From: Chloroflexota bacterium
GTDB taxonomy: Bacteria > Chloroflexota > Anaerolineae > Promineifilales > Promineifilaceae
Direction of reading: 5' to 3'
Length of the DNA: 39,508 nucleotides
NCBI GenBank assembly: GCA_020631655.1
Contig: JAHDGV010000003.1
Span: forward strand, 1 to 39,508
Shown in pieces: positions 14,264 through 28,641 of this stretch (its first letter is position 1; every line of letters begins with the position of its first letter). The notes beneath the pieces were generated by a model. It saw nothing but the letters and a program-made list of their open reading frames with translations. It searched no databases and was not told the origin of the DNA. A program made the translations under genes and the position numbers.

Positions 14264-17200
14264 CTAGCGTTTCCGCTTCTTTTTCTTTTTACGGGTCGCT
14301 TTTTCTGCCGCTGAAAGAGGTTTTTGCTCGGGAGCAGCTGCCTGATTACCGTTAGTTGGAGCCTGTTGAGTAGCAATTGCGCCGTTGGAAGAATCCGCTT
14401 TCATGTGGCAGTTTTTATACTTTTTGCCACTTCCACACGGACAGGGATCATTCCGGCCGACGCGCAAGGCATCTTTGCGAACTTGGGTTTTCTTCCCTTT
14501 GCCCTGAACAACCTGTAGCCCAGCCTTTGTGAGCGAGTCTTGCCGTTCTTGCTCCGCTTTTTCGCGCCGCATGTACTCTTCATGCCGCTGAATTTGGATA
14601 AAGAACTTGCTGGCAATTTCTCGCTGGATGTTGGTCAACATGTCGTCAAACATCTCGTAAGAGCGCATTTTGTATGCGATCTTAGGGTCTTTCTGACGGC
14701 CGGCCGACTCTAGGCCGATTTCGCGGCGCAGGTCATCTGCGGCCGATAAGTAGTCGCGCCATTCCCGGTCAATGGCTGAGAGCATCATCGTCCGTTGGAA
14801 CTTGGTGAAGGATTCTTCGCCGATCCGTTTTTTCCAGTTTTTACGTTCTTTATCAACGTATAACCCGAGCGCCTCAACCAATTCATCCCCTGAAAGGGCA
14901 GATAAACAGCTGATCAACAGATTTTGGAGCCCTTCACGAACAGCGACACGGAACTTCGTTTGCTGTCCTTTTAAGACATCAACGGCCAAACGCTGAGATG
15001 GGAAAGCATTAAATGCACCACCAATCTCTTCCTCTGCTTTGGCCCATAAAGCGGTTTTGTCGTCTTCGGCCGCAAAGTCAGCCAAGAAGTTGTCGAACAC
15101 CGCCCGCACGTTGGTCATGAAACGGGCCTGTGTATTTTGTTTCGCCTGAATATGGTTCGATTTGGTGTTTGCCATAATCGCGTCCATGCGTGGAATCGCG
15201 GGCAAAAGCGGAATAAACCGACTCATCTCTTGAAGCATTTGATACAGATTGCGCCCTTCGTCCAAGTTTTCTTGGGCAAGCGCCATCATTTCGCCACGAA
15301 CTTCGTCTGGTGTCCAATCGGCCATTTCTGCCATATCCAGCTTGCGGATGGGCAGATAGGTTTGTAACCGGCCGAAGACCCCTTTTAGGTTGACCGAGTC
15401 AGTTGCTTCGGCTGAGAAATCGTCCACGGCGCGATCAACTTCACCGCCGATGAAGCCCAGATAATTATCGAGATAATTGGTGACAAGCTCATCGATGATT
15501 AGCTCAAACGCTTCATCAAGCCGCTCATCCATGTCATCATTCCCAGTTAAGATCGAGCGACGGCCGTCGTAAATTGTTTCACGCTGTTTCGACATGACAT
15601 CGTCATACTCAAGAACGTTTTTACGGATGTCAAAGTTGTACCCTTCGATCCGCTCCTGCGAACTGGCGATGATGCGATCTAACAAACGACTTTCAATCGG
15701 AATGTCGCTGTCGGTGTAACTGCTCATGAATGACTTGAGTCGTTCACCACCAAAGCGGCGCATGAGCTCATCTTCTAGCGACAAGAAAAAGCGGCTGGAG
15801 CCGGGGTCACCCTGACGGGCCGCACGACCGCGAAGCTGGTTGTCAATCCGGCGGGATTCATGCCGTTCAGAGCCAACAACGTGCAGACCGCCCAGTTCCC
15901 ATACCTCGTCACGCGATGATTCCGCGTCACTCATAATTTTTTGGATGTCTGTTATGAGGCTAGCTGGCAGGGCTGGAACATCGCCAACAATTTGCTCTGC
16001 TTCGGCCGTTTCACCTTCCAGCACAGCACGAACGACGGCCGCACGGGCGTTATAGTGATAATCGAAGACCTGATCGGATAAAAATTCTGCCATTTTCCGA
16101 TCATCTTTTAACGCCACTTGGAAGCGAGTGTGTAATTCAGTCTCACGTACCGCCTCGTCCACGATGATCGTGTCTAAATCTCGCTCTTTTAAATATTCAC
16201 GAGCATCATCCCGTCGGCCGATTTGGATCTGAGACAAGATGTGACGGGCGGTTTCAAAATCGAGATCATGTTCTTCTTGGAACATCTTGGCAAGATAGCC
16301 AACCATTTGAACTTCCTCGATTTGTTTGGCCGATGCATCGAATTCTGCCTTTTTCGCGGCCAGCGTATCAACCAGCTCTGCATCCAATTTGCCAGATTTT
16401 GTTGCCAGCTCTTTGGCTTTATCAACCCCTTCGGTCACATATTTCAGGGCCAAAGCGATGAGTTGCTCACGGGTGAACAGGCTATCTTCAACCATAGCGG
16501 CCGCCAATCCTTCAGGATTACCGCCCAGCATGATGTCTGTACCACGACCGGCCATGTTGGTCGAAATCGTAACAGCCCCTTTCTTGCCCGCTTGGGCAAC
16601 CGTCAGCGCTTCGGATTGATGCATTTTTGCATTCAAGACGTTGTGGTTAACATTCTCGCTATTGAGCATCTGATGGATTTTTTCAGAGTGCTCAACCGAA
16701 GTGGTACCGACCAGAACGGGTCGGCCGGTTTGCGCCACACGTTTAACCTCTTGAACAATCGCTTGGTCTTTATAATCTTCTGTAGCAAAAACTTGGTCAG
16801 GGAAGTCGATGCGCTTAAAGAAAGCGGGTTTGCTTTCACCCTTGTTGTAGTAGCTAAAGGCCTCGGTCCCCTCGATTGTCTCTTTTTTGGTTTCCATCCC
16901 TAGATCAGAATATTCAACCAAATAGGTTACGTTGGTGGGGAGCGGCGTTACATCTACGCTGTAGATTTCTTGGAATTCCTCAGCATCGGTCATGGCTGTA
17001 CCGGTCATCCCAGCGATTTTGTTGTACAGCCTGAAATAATTTTGGATGGTGATGGTTGCAACCGTCACGCTTTCCCGCTTAACGGTTACCCCTTCCTTCG
17101 CCTCGATGGCCTCATGCAGACCATCTGAGTAGCGACGGCCGGGCATTAAACGGCCGGTAAAGTCATCGATGATCACCACTTCATTTTGCTGAACCGTATA

Positions 17201-18259
17201 ATCTTTATCCCGTTTGAACATGTACTGCGCTTTTAAGGCGTTGTCCAAATAGTAAGTCATATGGTAGAAGCGAGGGTCATAAATGCTGTCCCCTTCTTCT
17301 GGGTCCAACTCCGGAATCTTGGCTTCAATGGCCGCAATTCCCATGTCGGTCAGCGTGATCGATTTGCTCTTTTCATCGAAGTCATAGTGGCCGTTTGGCT
17401 CTTCGTCCTCGTCACGCGTGTTTCGTTTTAACCCACGCACGTAGCCGGAAAAACGAATGTACTCGTCAGACGCTTGGTTTGCGGGTCCTGAAATGATTAA
17501 TGGTGTACGAGCCTCATCAATTAGAACGTTGTCTACCTCGTCGATAACGGCAAAGTTGTGCGGCCGTTGAACCAAGCGATCTGGATCGCTGATCATGTTG
17601 TCACGTAGATAGTCAAAGCCAAACTCGCTACTAATCCCGTAGGTGATGTCAGCTTGGTACGCTTCGCGGCGGGTACACGGCCGCCAGTGAACAAGGCGGT
17701 CGTCTTCTAGCTCTGCACCAGGATTAACGTAATCCCCATCGTACAGGGCTGAATATTGTTGCGGCCCAATAATGCCGACGCTCAGCCCCAAAAAGGTGAA
17801 GATTTGACCCATCCAGCCACCGTCACGGCGTGCTAGATATTCGTTCACCGTTACAAGGTGAACGCCTCGGCCGGAAAGCGCGTTTAGAAACAGCGGGAGC
17901 GTTCCAACCAGCGTTTTTCCTTCACCCGTACGCATTTCAATGATTTCGCCCCGACTGAGCAAAATACCACCCATCATTTGTACATCGTAGTGGCGCAAAG
18001 TGGTGGTGCGACGGGATCCTTCGCGCACAAGGGCAAACACTTCTGGTATCGCTTCCTGTAGGGCTTCGTTGCGCTCATCATCATCTTCGATGGCGGAAAT
18101 ACGATCCTTCAGGCTCAGGGTTAATTCCCGAAGCTCTTCATCGCTCATGGCCTGCATACGTGGTTCTTCGCTCTCAATCGCTTCAACCAGCGGCCGTAAA
18201 TTGTCAATTACTTTTTTATTTGGGTCGCCTGAAAAGGCGCTCACAATTCGATTCCACAT
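14264..18259 (-). CDS. secA: Preprotein translocase subunit SecA (1331 aa, long form)
   Basis: MRTGEGKTLVGTLPLFLNAL, VDNVLIDEARTPLIISGP, GMTGTAMTDAEEF, TNMAGRGTDIMLGGNPE, HESRRIDNQLRGRAARQGDPGSSRFFLSLED, C-terminal SEC-C motif VGRNDPCPCGSGKKYKNCH. Confidence 0.97.
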   Translation of the reverse strand: MWNRIVSAFSGDPNKKVIDNLRPLVEAIESEEPRMQAMSDEELRELTLSLKDRISAIEDDDERNEALQEAIPEVFALVREGSRRTTTLRHYDVQMMGGILLSRGEIIEMRTGEGKTLVGTLPLFLNALSGRGVHLVTVNEYLARRDGGWMGQIFTFLGLSVGIIGPQQYSALYDGDYVNPGAELEDDRLVHWRPCTRREAYQADITYGISSEFGFDYLRDNMISDPDRLVQRPHNFAVIDEVDNVLIDEARTPLIISGPANQASDEYIRFSGYVRGLKRNTRDEDEEPNGHYDFDEKSKSITLTDMGIAAIEAKIPELDPEEGDSIYDPRFYHMTYYLDNALKAQYMFKRDKDYTVQQNEVVIIDDFTGRLMPGRRYSDGLHEAIEAKEGVTVKRESVTVATITIQNYFRLYNKIAGMTGTAMTDAEEFQEIYSVDVTPLPTNVTYLVEYSDLGMETKKETIEGTEAFSYYNKGESKPAFFKRIDFPDQVFATEDYKDQAIVQEVKRVAQTGRPVLVGTTSVEHSEKIHQMLNSENVNHNVLNAKMHQSEALTVAQAGKKGAVTISTNMAGRGTDIMLGGNPEGLAAAMVEDSLFTREQLIALALKYVTEGVDKAKELATKSGKLDAELVDTLAAKKAEFDASAKQIEEVQMVGYLAKMFQEEHDLDFETARHILSQIQIGRRDDAREYLKERDLDTIIVDEAVRETELHTRFQVALKDDRKMAEFLSDQVFDYHYNARAAVVRAVLEGETAEAEQIVGDVPALPASLITDIQKIMSDAESSRDEVWELGGLHVVGSERHESRRIDNQLRGRAARQGDPGSSRFFLSLEDELMRRFGGERLKSFMSSYTDSDIPIESRLLDRIIASSQERIEGYNFDIRKNVLEYDDVMSKQRETIYDGRRSILTGNDDMDERLDEAFELIIDELVTNYLDNYLGFIGGEVDRAVDDFSAEATDSVNLKGVFGRLQTYLPIRKLDMAEMADWTPDEVRGEMMALAQENLDEGRNLYQMLQEMSRFIPLLPAIPRMDAIMANTKSNHIQAKQNTQARFMTNVRAVFDNFLADFAAEDDKTALWAKAEEEIGGAFNAFPSQRLAVDVLKGQQTKFRVAVREGLQNLLISCLSALSGDELVEALGLYVDKERKNWKKRIGEESFTKFQRTMMLSAIDREWRDYLSAADDLRREIGLESAGRQKDPKIAYKMRSYEMFDDMLTNIQREIASKFFIQIQRHEEYMRREKAEQERQDSLTKAGLQVVQGKGKKTQVRKDALRVGRNDPCPCGSGKKYKNCHMKADSSNGAIATQQAPTNGNQAAAPEQKPLSAAEKATRKKKKKRKR

Positions 18260-18541: not shown

Positions 18542-18613
18542 AAAAGACTTCGAAAGTTTAATTTTTTCGGTTCAACCGTGGATCGGTGATGAGGAAAACT
18601 TCCGAAGTCTTTT
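18542..18613 (-). terminator. Long-stem hairpin, probable terminator of prs
   Basis: AAAAGACTTCGAAAGTTT (18542-18559) versus AAACTTCCGAAGTCTTTT (18596-18613), 17/18 paired, 36-nt loop; minus-strand readout ends in TCTTTTTAGTTTTT. Confidence 0.7.
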
Positions 18614-26705: not shown

Positions 26706-27524
26706 TTATGACCCGATCCATGCGTCGATGATGTCTTGCAATTCACCCGAGAAGCTGAGTGTTTCAATGATTTGATTAATCTCACTTAGCAATTCATCGT
26801 CATCTTTACGCACAACAATTGCGTACGGTTCTACCGTAATCGGTTCAGCCACCAGAGATAGCCTCGAATGGCTTTGCATGTAGAGTCGGGCGTTGACTTG
26901 ATCGATCAAAGCTCCGGCCGTCTCTTGTTGCAGAACCGTCCACATCGCATCGTCCGGAGTGGGCAAGGTTTTGATGGAGAGATCTCGCACACGATTTTGG
27001 GCGCTGATCGCCGCCACATGCCCTGCCGATCCGGTCTCTACACTAACCGTTTTTCCCTCAAAGTCGGTCAACGAATTAACACCGGTCGTCTCTTCATGCA
27101 CAACTAAAAATTGGCCCGCATTGAAATACGGCTCTGAATAAGCAAAGTCTTTGGTTTTAGTTTCGTCGATGATCAGGGCCGAGATGAGGATGTCACACTG
27201 GTCGATTAACAGGGCGTCGTACAACCCATCGTACCCAAACAGTACAAACTCAACGGAGACTCCTAGTTCCCGGCCGATGGCGTTTGCCAGATCGATGTCG
27301 ATGCCGTGTAACCCACCATCGCCGTTTTCAAACGGTGGAAACGTGGGATCAAGCCCCACACGAATAACCCCATCTGCCCGAATGCGCTCCAGTGTTTGTG
27401 AGCGGTTGCCACAGCCGGAAAAGAGTAGGAAGAAAGAAGTAATAAGTATGAAGTAGCAGGCGCGCCATTTTGGACTTCTTACTTCATACTTTCTACTTAT
27501 CACTTTGTCACTCGCCACTGGCAA
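26706..27524 (-). CDS. ABC transporter substrate-binding lipoprotein (SBP family 3)
   Basis: YFILITSFFLLFSGCG lipobox-like signal; GVIRVGLDPTFPPFENGDGGLHGIDIDLANAIGRELGV; QCDILISALIIDETKTKDFAYSEPYF. No ATG; ORF opens at TTG 27524, later in-frame GTGs possible. Confidence 0.85.
   Translation of the reverse strand: MPVASDKVISRKYEVRSPKWRACYFILITSFFLLFSGCGNRSQTLERIRADGVIRVGLDPTFPPFENGDGGLHGIDIDLANAIGRELGVSVEFVLFGYDGLYDALLIDQCDILISALIIDETKTKDFAYSEPYFNAGQFLVVHEETTGVNSLTDFEGKTVSVETGSAGHVAAISAQNRVRDLSIKTLPTPDDAMWTVLQQETAGALIDQVNARLYMQSHSRLSLVAEPITVEPYAIVVRKDDDELLSEINQIIETLSFSGELQDIIDAWIGS
27444..27491. repeat. AAGTATGAAGTA-type inverted repeat inside the 5' end of the SBP gene
   Basis: AAGTATGAAGTA (27444-27455) and TACTTCATACTT (27480-27491), perfect 12-bp arms; loop contains GGCGCGCC; flanks extend the same AAGTA monomers. 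Confidence 0.75.
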
Positions 27525-28641
27525 CCTCCTGCAAAGCTGAGTAAATCGGTTTTTGAATAAACTCAGGGGTCACGAGTGAATAGGCATCCATATAACTTTT
27601 AGTCGGAGCTGGAGTCCTAAACATCCAGATGGCGGCCGTTTCAACCCACGGGGTCTGCTCCGCTACATGTTGGATGGCGTTTGTCGTGTAGTCAATCCGC
27701 TGTCCCGGCCGAACAGCCCGTGTCCAGCGGGGATGATCGTTCCAGCCGGTTTCAGTAATGTACACAGGGACTTCGTGATCATAAGCCAGCATAATGTCCC
27801 GATAAAGCTCGTAGCGTCTAAAGTTGAGCAATTCTGGATCCGGCGGCGTTTCAGGGGGGAACTGGAATCCATAAGTATGGACGGCTAAGCCGTCCAAGTG
27901 CTCGGCCACCCCGGCCGCATACATCTGCTCTAAGTAGATGAGGTCGTTTAATCCCCACGGAGACCCTTCTGGCTCAAGCGTTGGGGCTAGCGCACCGCCG
28001 AGAATCAACACGTCTGGGCTAACTTGTTTTACAGCCTGCGATGTTTCAGCGATTAGTTCCACGTAATCGGCCGCCGTTGTCGGCTGATATCCCCATTCAA
28101 AAGCCAGATTTGGCTCGTTCCAGACAATGATTGCGTGTAATTTCCCCTCGTATCTCTGGGCAAATTCGGCCGTGAATGCGGCAAAATCTGCATAGCTTTC
28201 TGGGCCAAGATAGTTAAGCGTCGTTTCTTCCGGCCGGGCCCATTCCGGCGTCAGGCCGATTCGGGCAATCACCCGCAACCCTTGGGCGTGCGCATGCTCC
28301 ATCACCAAATCAGGATGTTGCCACGCGATGCCACCACTTTCATCTTGGTAATAGGCCCATGGAAAAAACTCAACGATGGTGGTTGCTCCCATCTCTCGCA
28401 CCATTTCAAGCGAGCGTTTGATTTTCCACTCTTCTACTTCATCGGTGAGTCGGGTGTGGACGCCCAAGACGGGGAGCTCGCTTTCCACAGTTTGCTCCGG
28501 CCCCAGCACAACTAAATCAGGGGCCGGTTTTAGCGCCAGCAGGATGAGGAACATACCGGTCCACCGTATAACTTTACTCATCATCGAATTAGTTTTGGCT
28601 TGCTCGGCTATGTGCAAAGTAGAAGTCGCCCCACCAATCAA
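27508..28641 (-). CDS. Glycoside-hydrolase-like TIM-barrel protein (GH5/GH39-like)
   Basis: IIVWNEPNLAFEWGY (acid/base region) and VYITETGWNDHPRW (nucleophile region); signal peptide after MMSKVIRWTGMFLILLALK, so the real start may be near 28587/28584. Confidence 0.72.
   Translation of the reverse strand: MIGGATSTLHIAEQAKTNSMMSKVIRWTGMFLILLALKPAPDLVVLGPEQTVESELPVLGVHTRLTDEVEEWKIKRSLEMVREMGATTIVEFFPWAYYQDESGGIAWQHPDLVMEHAHAQGLRVIARIGLTPEWARPEETTLNYLGPESYADFAAFTAEFAQRYEGKLHAIIVWNEPNLAFEWGYQPTTAADYVELIAETSQAVKQVSPDVLILGGALAPTLEPEGSPWGLNDLIYLEQMYAAGVAEHLDGLAVHTYGFQFPPETPPDPELLNFRRYELYRDIMLAYDHEVPVYITETGWNDHPRWTRAVRPGQRIDYTTNAIQHVAEQTPWVETAAIWMFRTPAPTKSYMDAYSLVTPEFIQKPIYSALQEVASGE

Follow-up and report, generated by a model that had tools for sequence, protein, structure and literature searches.

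The predicted signal peptide of a transporter lipoprotein in an uncultured Chloroflexota bacterium (G000) was very probably formed from a stop-codon hairpin, a copy of a dispersed repeat element. The hairpin lies within the 39,508-nt stretch of DNA that we analyzed (the window), between a glycosyl-hydrolase-like gene and the gene of an SBP_bac_3 substrate-binding protein (SBP), and is read in frame at the start of the latter. Judging from orthologous sequences, the same event appears to have happened again in other relatives with other repeat words.

Structure and reading of the hairpin

The relevant features of the window are as follows.

26706..27518, minus strand: SBP_bac_3 substrate-binding lipoprotein gene (Pfam PF00497, E=5e-29)
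27411..27425, minus strand: lipobox LFSGC, with the Cys codon TGT at 27413-27411
27424..27505, minus strand: dispersed element, a hairpin of heptamer words with AAGTANN units (inverted repeat and genome matches)
27430..27455, minus strand: 3' pyrimidine-rich arm, coding for YFILITSFF of the signal-peptide core
27456..27479, minus strand: loop (spacer), 24 nt
27480..27505, minus strand: 5' purine-rich arm in the minus-strand reading, with stops in two frames and the SBP frame open
27501..27503, minus strand: alternative start GTG in the foot of the 5' arm
27508..27510, minus strand: TGA stop of the upstream gene, adjoining the hairpin foot
27508..28641, minus strand: glycosyl-hydrolase-like gene (Glyco_hydro_cc), a conserved neighbour (Pfam and synteny)
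27516..27518, minus strand: candidate start GTG of the SBP gene, in frame and overlapping the upstream gene's tail (from AGGAGG spacing)
27525..27530, minus strand: AGGAGG, Shine-Dalgarno-like, 6 nt before the GTG at 27518

The hairpin sequence singled out by the original prediction was located at 27503-27423 of the minus strand. Its arms (27430-27455 and 27480-27505, 26 nt each with a 24-nt spacer) are 81% complementary and pair perfectly in the 12 loop-proximal bases, AAGTATGAAGTA (27480-27491) with TACTTCATACTT (27444-27455). On the minus strand the words run AAGTAGA-AAGTATG-AAGTAAG-AAGT ... TACTTCATACTTATTACTTCTTTCTTCCTACT; the arms are thus built from repeats as predicted, and the unit, described at first as an AAGTA-type monomer, is refined to the heptamer AAGTANN. 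Folding of the element as single-stranded DNA gave z = -2.7, and the RNA fold of a 120-nt stretch around it reached -32.7 kcal/mol with a z of only -1.7. An Rfam search returned no match above the gathering score, and an intrinsic terminator was ruled out by the A+T-rich arms, the lack of a U-run directly after the stem and the position inside the SBP ORF.

A genome search bore out the claim that the element is dispersed. An arm 18-mer with up to three mismatches matched five times in the window, every time inside the element (expected 0.03), whereas genome-wide AAGTATGAAGTA occurs 19 times versus 4 for its reversed control. The 84-nt element used as query against its own genome gave 30 matches including itself, in about 20 places, several of them on both strands as expected for hairpins. 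Many of the dispersed copies (~43-100 bp) are hairpins that differ from each other in loops, words and word order.

The SBP_bac_3 assignment is clear (PF00497, 101 bits versus a cut-off of 26.4), and, as the original prediction had it, the hairpin is translated within this gene: the ORF is open across both arms, reading (V/M)ISRKYEVRSPKWRACYFILITSFFLLFSGCG, and is the sole stop-free frame through the element. This frame begins at in-frame TTG/GTG codons within the upstream gene's tail, contains no ATG ahead of the mature protein, and leaves the arms at LFSGC. The hydrophobic core YFILITSFFLL (27455-27423) is indeed the translation of one arm, the 3' arm with a few flanking bases added, and is followed by the lipobox. 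By inspection, ISRKYEVRSPKWRACYFILITSFFLLFSGC has a positive n-region, a hydrophobic core and the lipobox Cys, whose position matches in nearly all orthologs. GTG starts had been proposed to lie in the other arm, and one is present at the foot of the 5' arm (27503-27501); the likelier start is probably the GTG at 27518, outside the hairpin and inside the upstream gene's tail, because AGGAGG (27530-27525) precedes it at 6-nt spacing. The upstream gene terminates with GAG TGA (27510-27508), and the hairpin starts 2-4 nt beyond.

The junction in close relatives and across the family

In the congener G004 (73% identity, identical neighbours on both sides) the junction carries no repeat, and the syntenic SBP gene begins in an ATGA overlap and codes for an ordinary signal peptide, MTSIQRRFMNQLGWLAWLCLIGIALFGC. 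The G000 frame equivalent to this start reads GTG ACA AAG TGA and is closed after three codons at the element. The closed start frame and the repeat-free G004 junction fit both proposals of the original prediction, domestication of the repeat as an export signal and displacement of the original start.

The nearest relative, G002, has the element with zero indels. Over 90 nt there are 4 substitutions, of which three are synonymous when read in the SBP frame, compared with 55 over the following 300 nt (Fisher p = 7e-4). The repeat-coded part shows 1 nonsynonymous change in 70 sites, and the mature SBP has a pN of 0.06 and a pS of 0.5-0.6. In our overall explanation the coding copy would be held by purifying selection, a reading for which a single species pair supplies a small number of substitutions. 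Nearby synonymous sites are less conserved than the arms, and the element's low synonymous divergence (0.15 vs 0.5-0.6) may reflect hairpin constraint or younger age instead of selection on the protein. Of three non-coding family copies compared between G000 and G002, one is absent from G002 with collinear flanks, the second faces a repeat of a different word in the other genome, and the third is common to both with a 7-nt indel; the contrast with the coding copy is suggestive, three sites being few. The empty site in G002 (L014/L205) has no clear target-site duplication, though its flanks have diverged, and a search of G002 for an ortholog of the L007 element found none. At the L016 site (G000 C934:2391) and in G002 C175, orthologous intergenic sites carry AAGTGAG-type and GATTTACG-type words, respectively.

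A repeat-derived N-terminus that is not used, either because translation starts elsewhere or because the SBP gene, its signal peptide disrupted, is in decay, would fit the closed overlapping frame and an ORF with in-frame GTG/TTG starts only and no ATG. We consider this highly improbable in view of the full-length stop-free ORF, the substitution rates of its mature and repeat-coded parts given above, the lipobox immediately after the arm, the AGGAGG well spaced to the GTG at 27518, and the lack of an alternative in-frame start close to the mature N-terminus.

The SBP gene was found at E <= 1e-40 in 45 of the 52 family genomes searched, and 44 family orthologs with a parsed N-terminus were scored for a period-7 array within ~140 nt of the lipobox cysteine. 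Such an array is present at the junction in 13 of them and absent from 31, compared with 46 of 700 ordinary co-directional junctions (p = 1e-5; p = 1e-4 after merging near-identical g22 rows). In every junction array inspected, the repeat comes after the upstream gene's conserved C-terminus. In nine orthologs it encodes all or part of the signal peptide, with differing words:

G000, G002: AAGTATG
G001: CCTTTTC
G012: CACACTC
G013: TTTCACG/ATCACGC
G064: TTTTACG
G016: TTTTTCG
G027: GGTCGGT, mostly n-region
G073: GGTGGCG, mostly n-region

In G027 and G073 the repeat codes mainly for the n-region and not for the hydrophobic core. Clear inverted pairs are seen only in G000/G002, in G027 and in the g22 copies, where they lie upstream of an ordinary start; the remaining junction arrays have no good second arm. 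Most orthologs carry unrelated, ordinary signal peptides at the same place. Mapped onto a mature-protein tree, the repeat trait requires 7 changes and a single clade is rejected. Conversion at this one orthologous junction apparently occurred seven or more times, a number that hangs on a tree with several weak branches.

The same data bear on whether this is ordinary coding sequence that resembles a repeat by chance. A hydrophobic core alone would favour pyrimidine-rich DNA, as signal-peptide codons do; yet the dispersed family is matched by the two arms alike, the hydrophilic 5' half among them, the peptide is common to only two genomes (G000 and G002), the junction is filled with different heptamer words in other relatives, and the periodicity at family junctions is specific to 7. 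Chance likeness is thereby largely refuted, and we give it next to no weight. The original prediction had named a unique arm conserved as protein in distant orthologs as the mark of ordinary coding sequence; here the arm is dispersed and the signal peptides of most orthologs are unrelated.

Heptamer hairpins at stop codons

We surveyed 2.08 Mb of sequence from eight genomes of the family using a simple codon-usage gene caller, whose stops are reliable and whose starts are unreliable, and found 70 heptamer hairpins. For 42 of the 50 placed hairpins a stop codon is no more than 25 nt away (median distance 5 nt), and array coverage is about zero within genes, rises sharply at the stop and drops after ~100 nt. 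The word "intergenic" in the original prediction was accordingly too general: the repeat stands, as an element type placed on stop codons family-wide. Where an array lies at the stop (82 genes), a further copy of that gene's stop triplet follows at exactly +7 in 29% of cases and at +14 in 28%, compared with 2% and 1.3% elsewhere, indicating that the stop codon itself is part of the word in many cases. Sixty of 69 hairpins have a purine-rich 5' arm. Lag 7 dominates, with 52 arrays in 800 kb of G027, none in shuffles and fewer at most other lags.

These hairpins have stops in more frames than predicted from dinucleotide composition (1.98 vs 1.57 +/- 0.08). Together with their close association with stop codons across the family and with arms that outconserve nearby synonymous sites between G000 and G002, this agrees with the possibility that the hairpin is kept mainly as an RNA or DNA element of the upstream gene (a 3'-end stabiliser, an attenuator, or a translational insulator that provides stops in several frames), the signal peptide being a tolerated side effect. 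We regard this as a possible though rather unlikely account, since elements are missing or replaced at orthologous sites of congeners, 31 of the 44 orthologs have no element at the junction, and the SBP reading frame contains the hairpin, after which there is no U-run. An RNA or insulating role may also coexist with the coding role.

Conversion of a stop-codon hairpin, one copy of a large and rapidly changing family, into the SBP signal peptide is the explanation that we favour. A hairpin would have grown at, or been copied to, the stop of the glycosyl-hydrolase-like gene, the simplest assumption being that this took place in an ancestor shared by G000 and G002. Its appearance in a tightly packed operon would have destroyed the downstream start and signal peptide, closing the old overlapping start of the G004 arrangement, and the pyrimidine-rich 3' arm would have supplied a hydrophobic stretch that, together with the lipobox, forms a putative lipoprotein signal peptide. 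Copies with an open frame and a hydrophobic 3' arm could still export the lipoprotein and would then have come under purifying selection. Such replacements would be survivable because signal peptides tolerate very many hydrophobic sequences. The simplest guess for the generation of the words is replication slippage combined with hairpin-templated copying. Only tentatively, and with considerable doubt, would we extend this to an active process in which heptamer words grow out from stop codons and are copied into inverted hairpins, continually making new C-terminal tails and some export signals. Since each heptamer shifts the frame by one base, an array would give the preceding gene stops in several frames and the following gene a mostly stop-free opposite arm; protein tails would be renewed in this way, as would the export signals of some genes for secreted proteins.

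Among 1361 called genes of eight family genomes (loci L050-L200 plus the window), 36 arrays cover C-terminal codons and run beyond the stop, so that the repeats also rewrite protein tails. Arrays of five TGANNNN units were seen in 31 of the 60 genomes searched within the class, with up to ~370 matches in one (G093). This suggests that stop-bearing heptamers are common across the class, the search being only qualitative because its imperfect reversed control (AGTN4) is itself a heptamer word.

Three broader patterns were considered and rejected. Absence of hairpins between divergent genes held in a first sample (0) and was not significant in a larger one (3 of 53). The pyrimidine arm is no universal ready-made export signal, as 9% of 3'-arm frames are clearly hydrophobic, compared with 17% for shuffled arms (5'-arm frames, 3%). 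Nor are heptamer signal peptides a genome-wide habit: among 55 lipoprotein-like N-termini, the clear cases (score >=16) all belong to this SBP gene. One further repeat-coded signal peptide was noted in G013 (L164:5740-5930), where a protein with LysM/SdrD_B domains has a Sec-type signal peptide start, MIKHAPFTIHNSQFILHNSPFLILLALLLAAPLPALAQQ, coded by an ATTCACA array that begins just past the upstream gene's stop.

Relation to known repeats

Heptameric repeats with the words GGGAATC and GGGGA(C/T)T have been described in Xanthomonas and Nostoc as arrays with variant units (Rehm et al. 2015, PMC4692102). Those of Xanthomonas include 70-75 inverted pairs. On the sense strand they show a strong bias to stop codons, overlapping them or lying no more than 50 bp away; on the antisense strand they are located before starts, and they are under-represented between divergent genes (PMC4692102). 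Period-7 tandem units, inverted pairing and the stop-codon position are all found here as well. In contrast to one G-rich, quadruplex-forming word per genome, our genomes have many words, mostly not quadruplex-like, and they differ further in a gene's own stop that is often in register, in word replacement at orthologous sites and in the reading as a signal peptide, of which no report was found in PMC4692102. The window arm AAGTAGAAAGTATGAAGTAAGAAGT has no G-tract of three and falls outside the quadruplex definition; lacking G-tracts, the element is of the same general kind as the heptamers of Rehm et al. and not of the same G-rich class.

The Yersinia palindromic repeat YPAL/RU-2 has hydrophobic coding capacity and partly forms the predicted signal peptide of a putative exported protein at locus YPO1552 (Delihas, PMC2229807). 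It is a 168-bp MITE-like unit of conserved sequence in a putative new protein. The Chloroflexota case involves a heptamer hairpin in place of the signal peptide of a conserved transporter lipoprotein, a replacement that appears to recur with differing words. Rickettsia palindromic elements (RPE) are likewise translated in frame within genes of conserved function; they differ in their length (~100-150 bp), their conserved peptide and their position mostly inside genes, with no heptamers and no tie to stop codons. Membership in the MITE or RPE classes, which requires one conserved sequence of ~100-200 bp, was rejected, our copies being ~43-100 bp long with varied words. Cyanobacterial STRR heptamers form short intergenic arrays of direct repeats. 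REP/BIME elements combine a GTAG- or CGTC-tagged palindrome of 20-40 bp with a RAYT transposase; the word diversity seen here argues against this identity. The TAACTGA heptamers of Beggiatoaceae are similar as short intergenic heptamer arrays, and are direct repeats mostly just upstream of starts and almost never inverted pairs (PMC4679880).

A literature search on Chloroflexota heptamers and repeat-derived signal peptides, covering few subscription journals, returned nothing beyond the works cited. The kind of element is already known, since stop-adjacent heptamer pairs of Xanthomonas and one partly MITE-derived predicted signal peptide in Yersinia have been described before. As far as the literature searched shows, the lineage, the register with the stop, the replacement of words at orthologous sites and the repeated conversion into a conserved lipoprotein's signal peptide are new. 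With repeat-free, repeat-bearing and differently filled states in relatives, the junction offers a clean comparative case of non-coding repeat DNA turning into a protein targeting signal, and lets natural data test the old proposal that a very wide range of hydrophobic sequences can be recruited as signal peptides. It also ties the heptamer repeats of these bacteria to the stop codon itself.

Two other features of the window were noted. A SecA homolog (14264-18259) is longer than usual, with 1331 aa and ~230 residues without a Pfam match between the P-loop and the wing/scaffold domains. A separate dispersed family of terminator-like palindromes resembling AAACCTCNGAGGTTT is found at 18542-18613 of the window and at L070:3377, L075:6396 and L077:4787.
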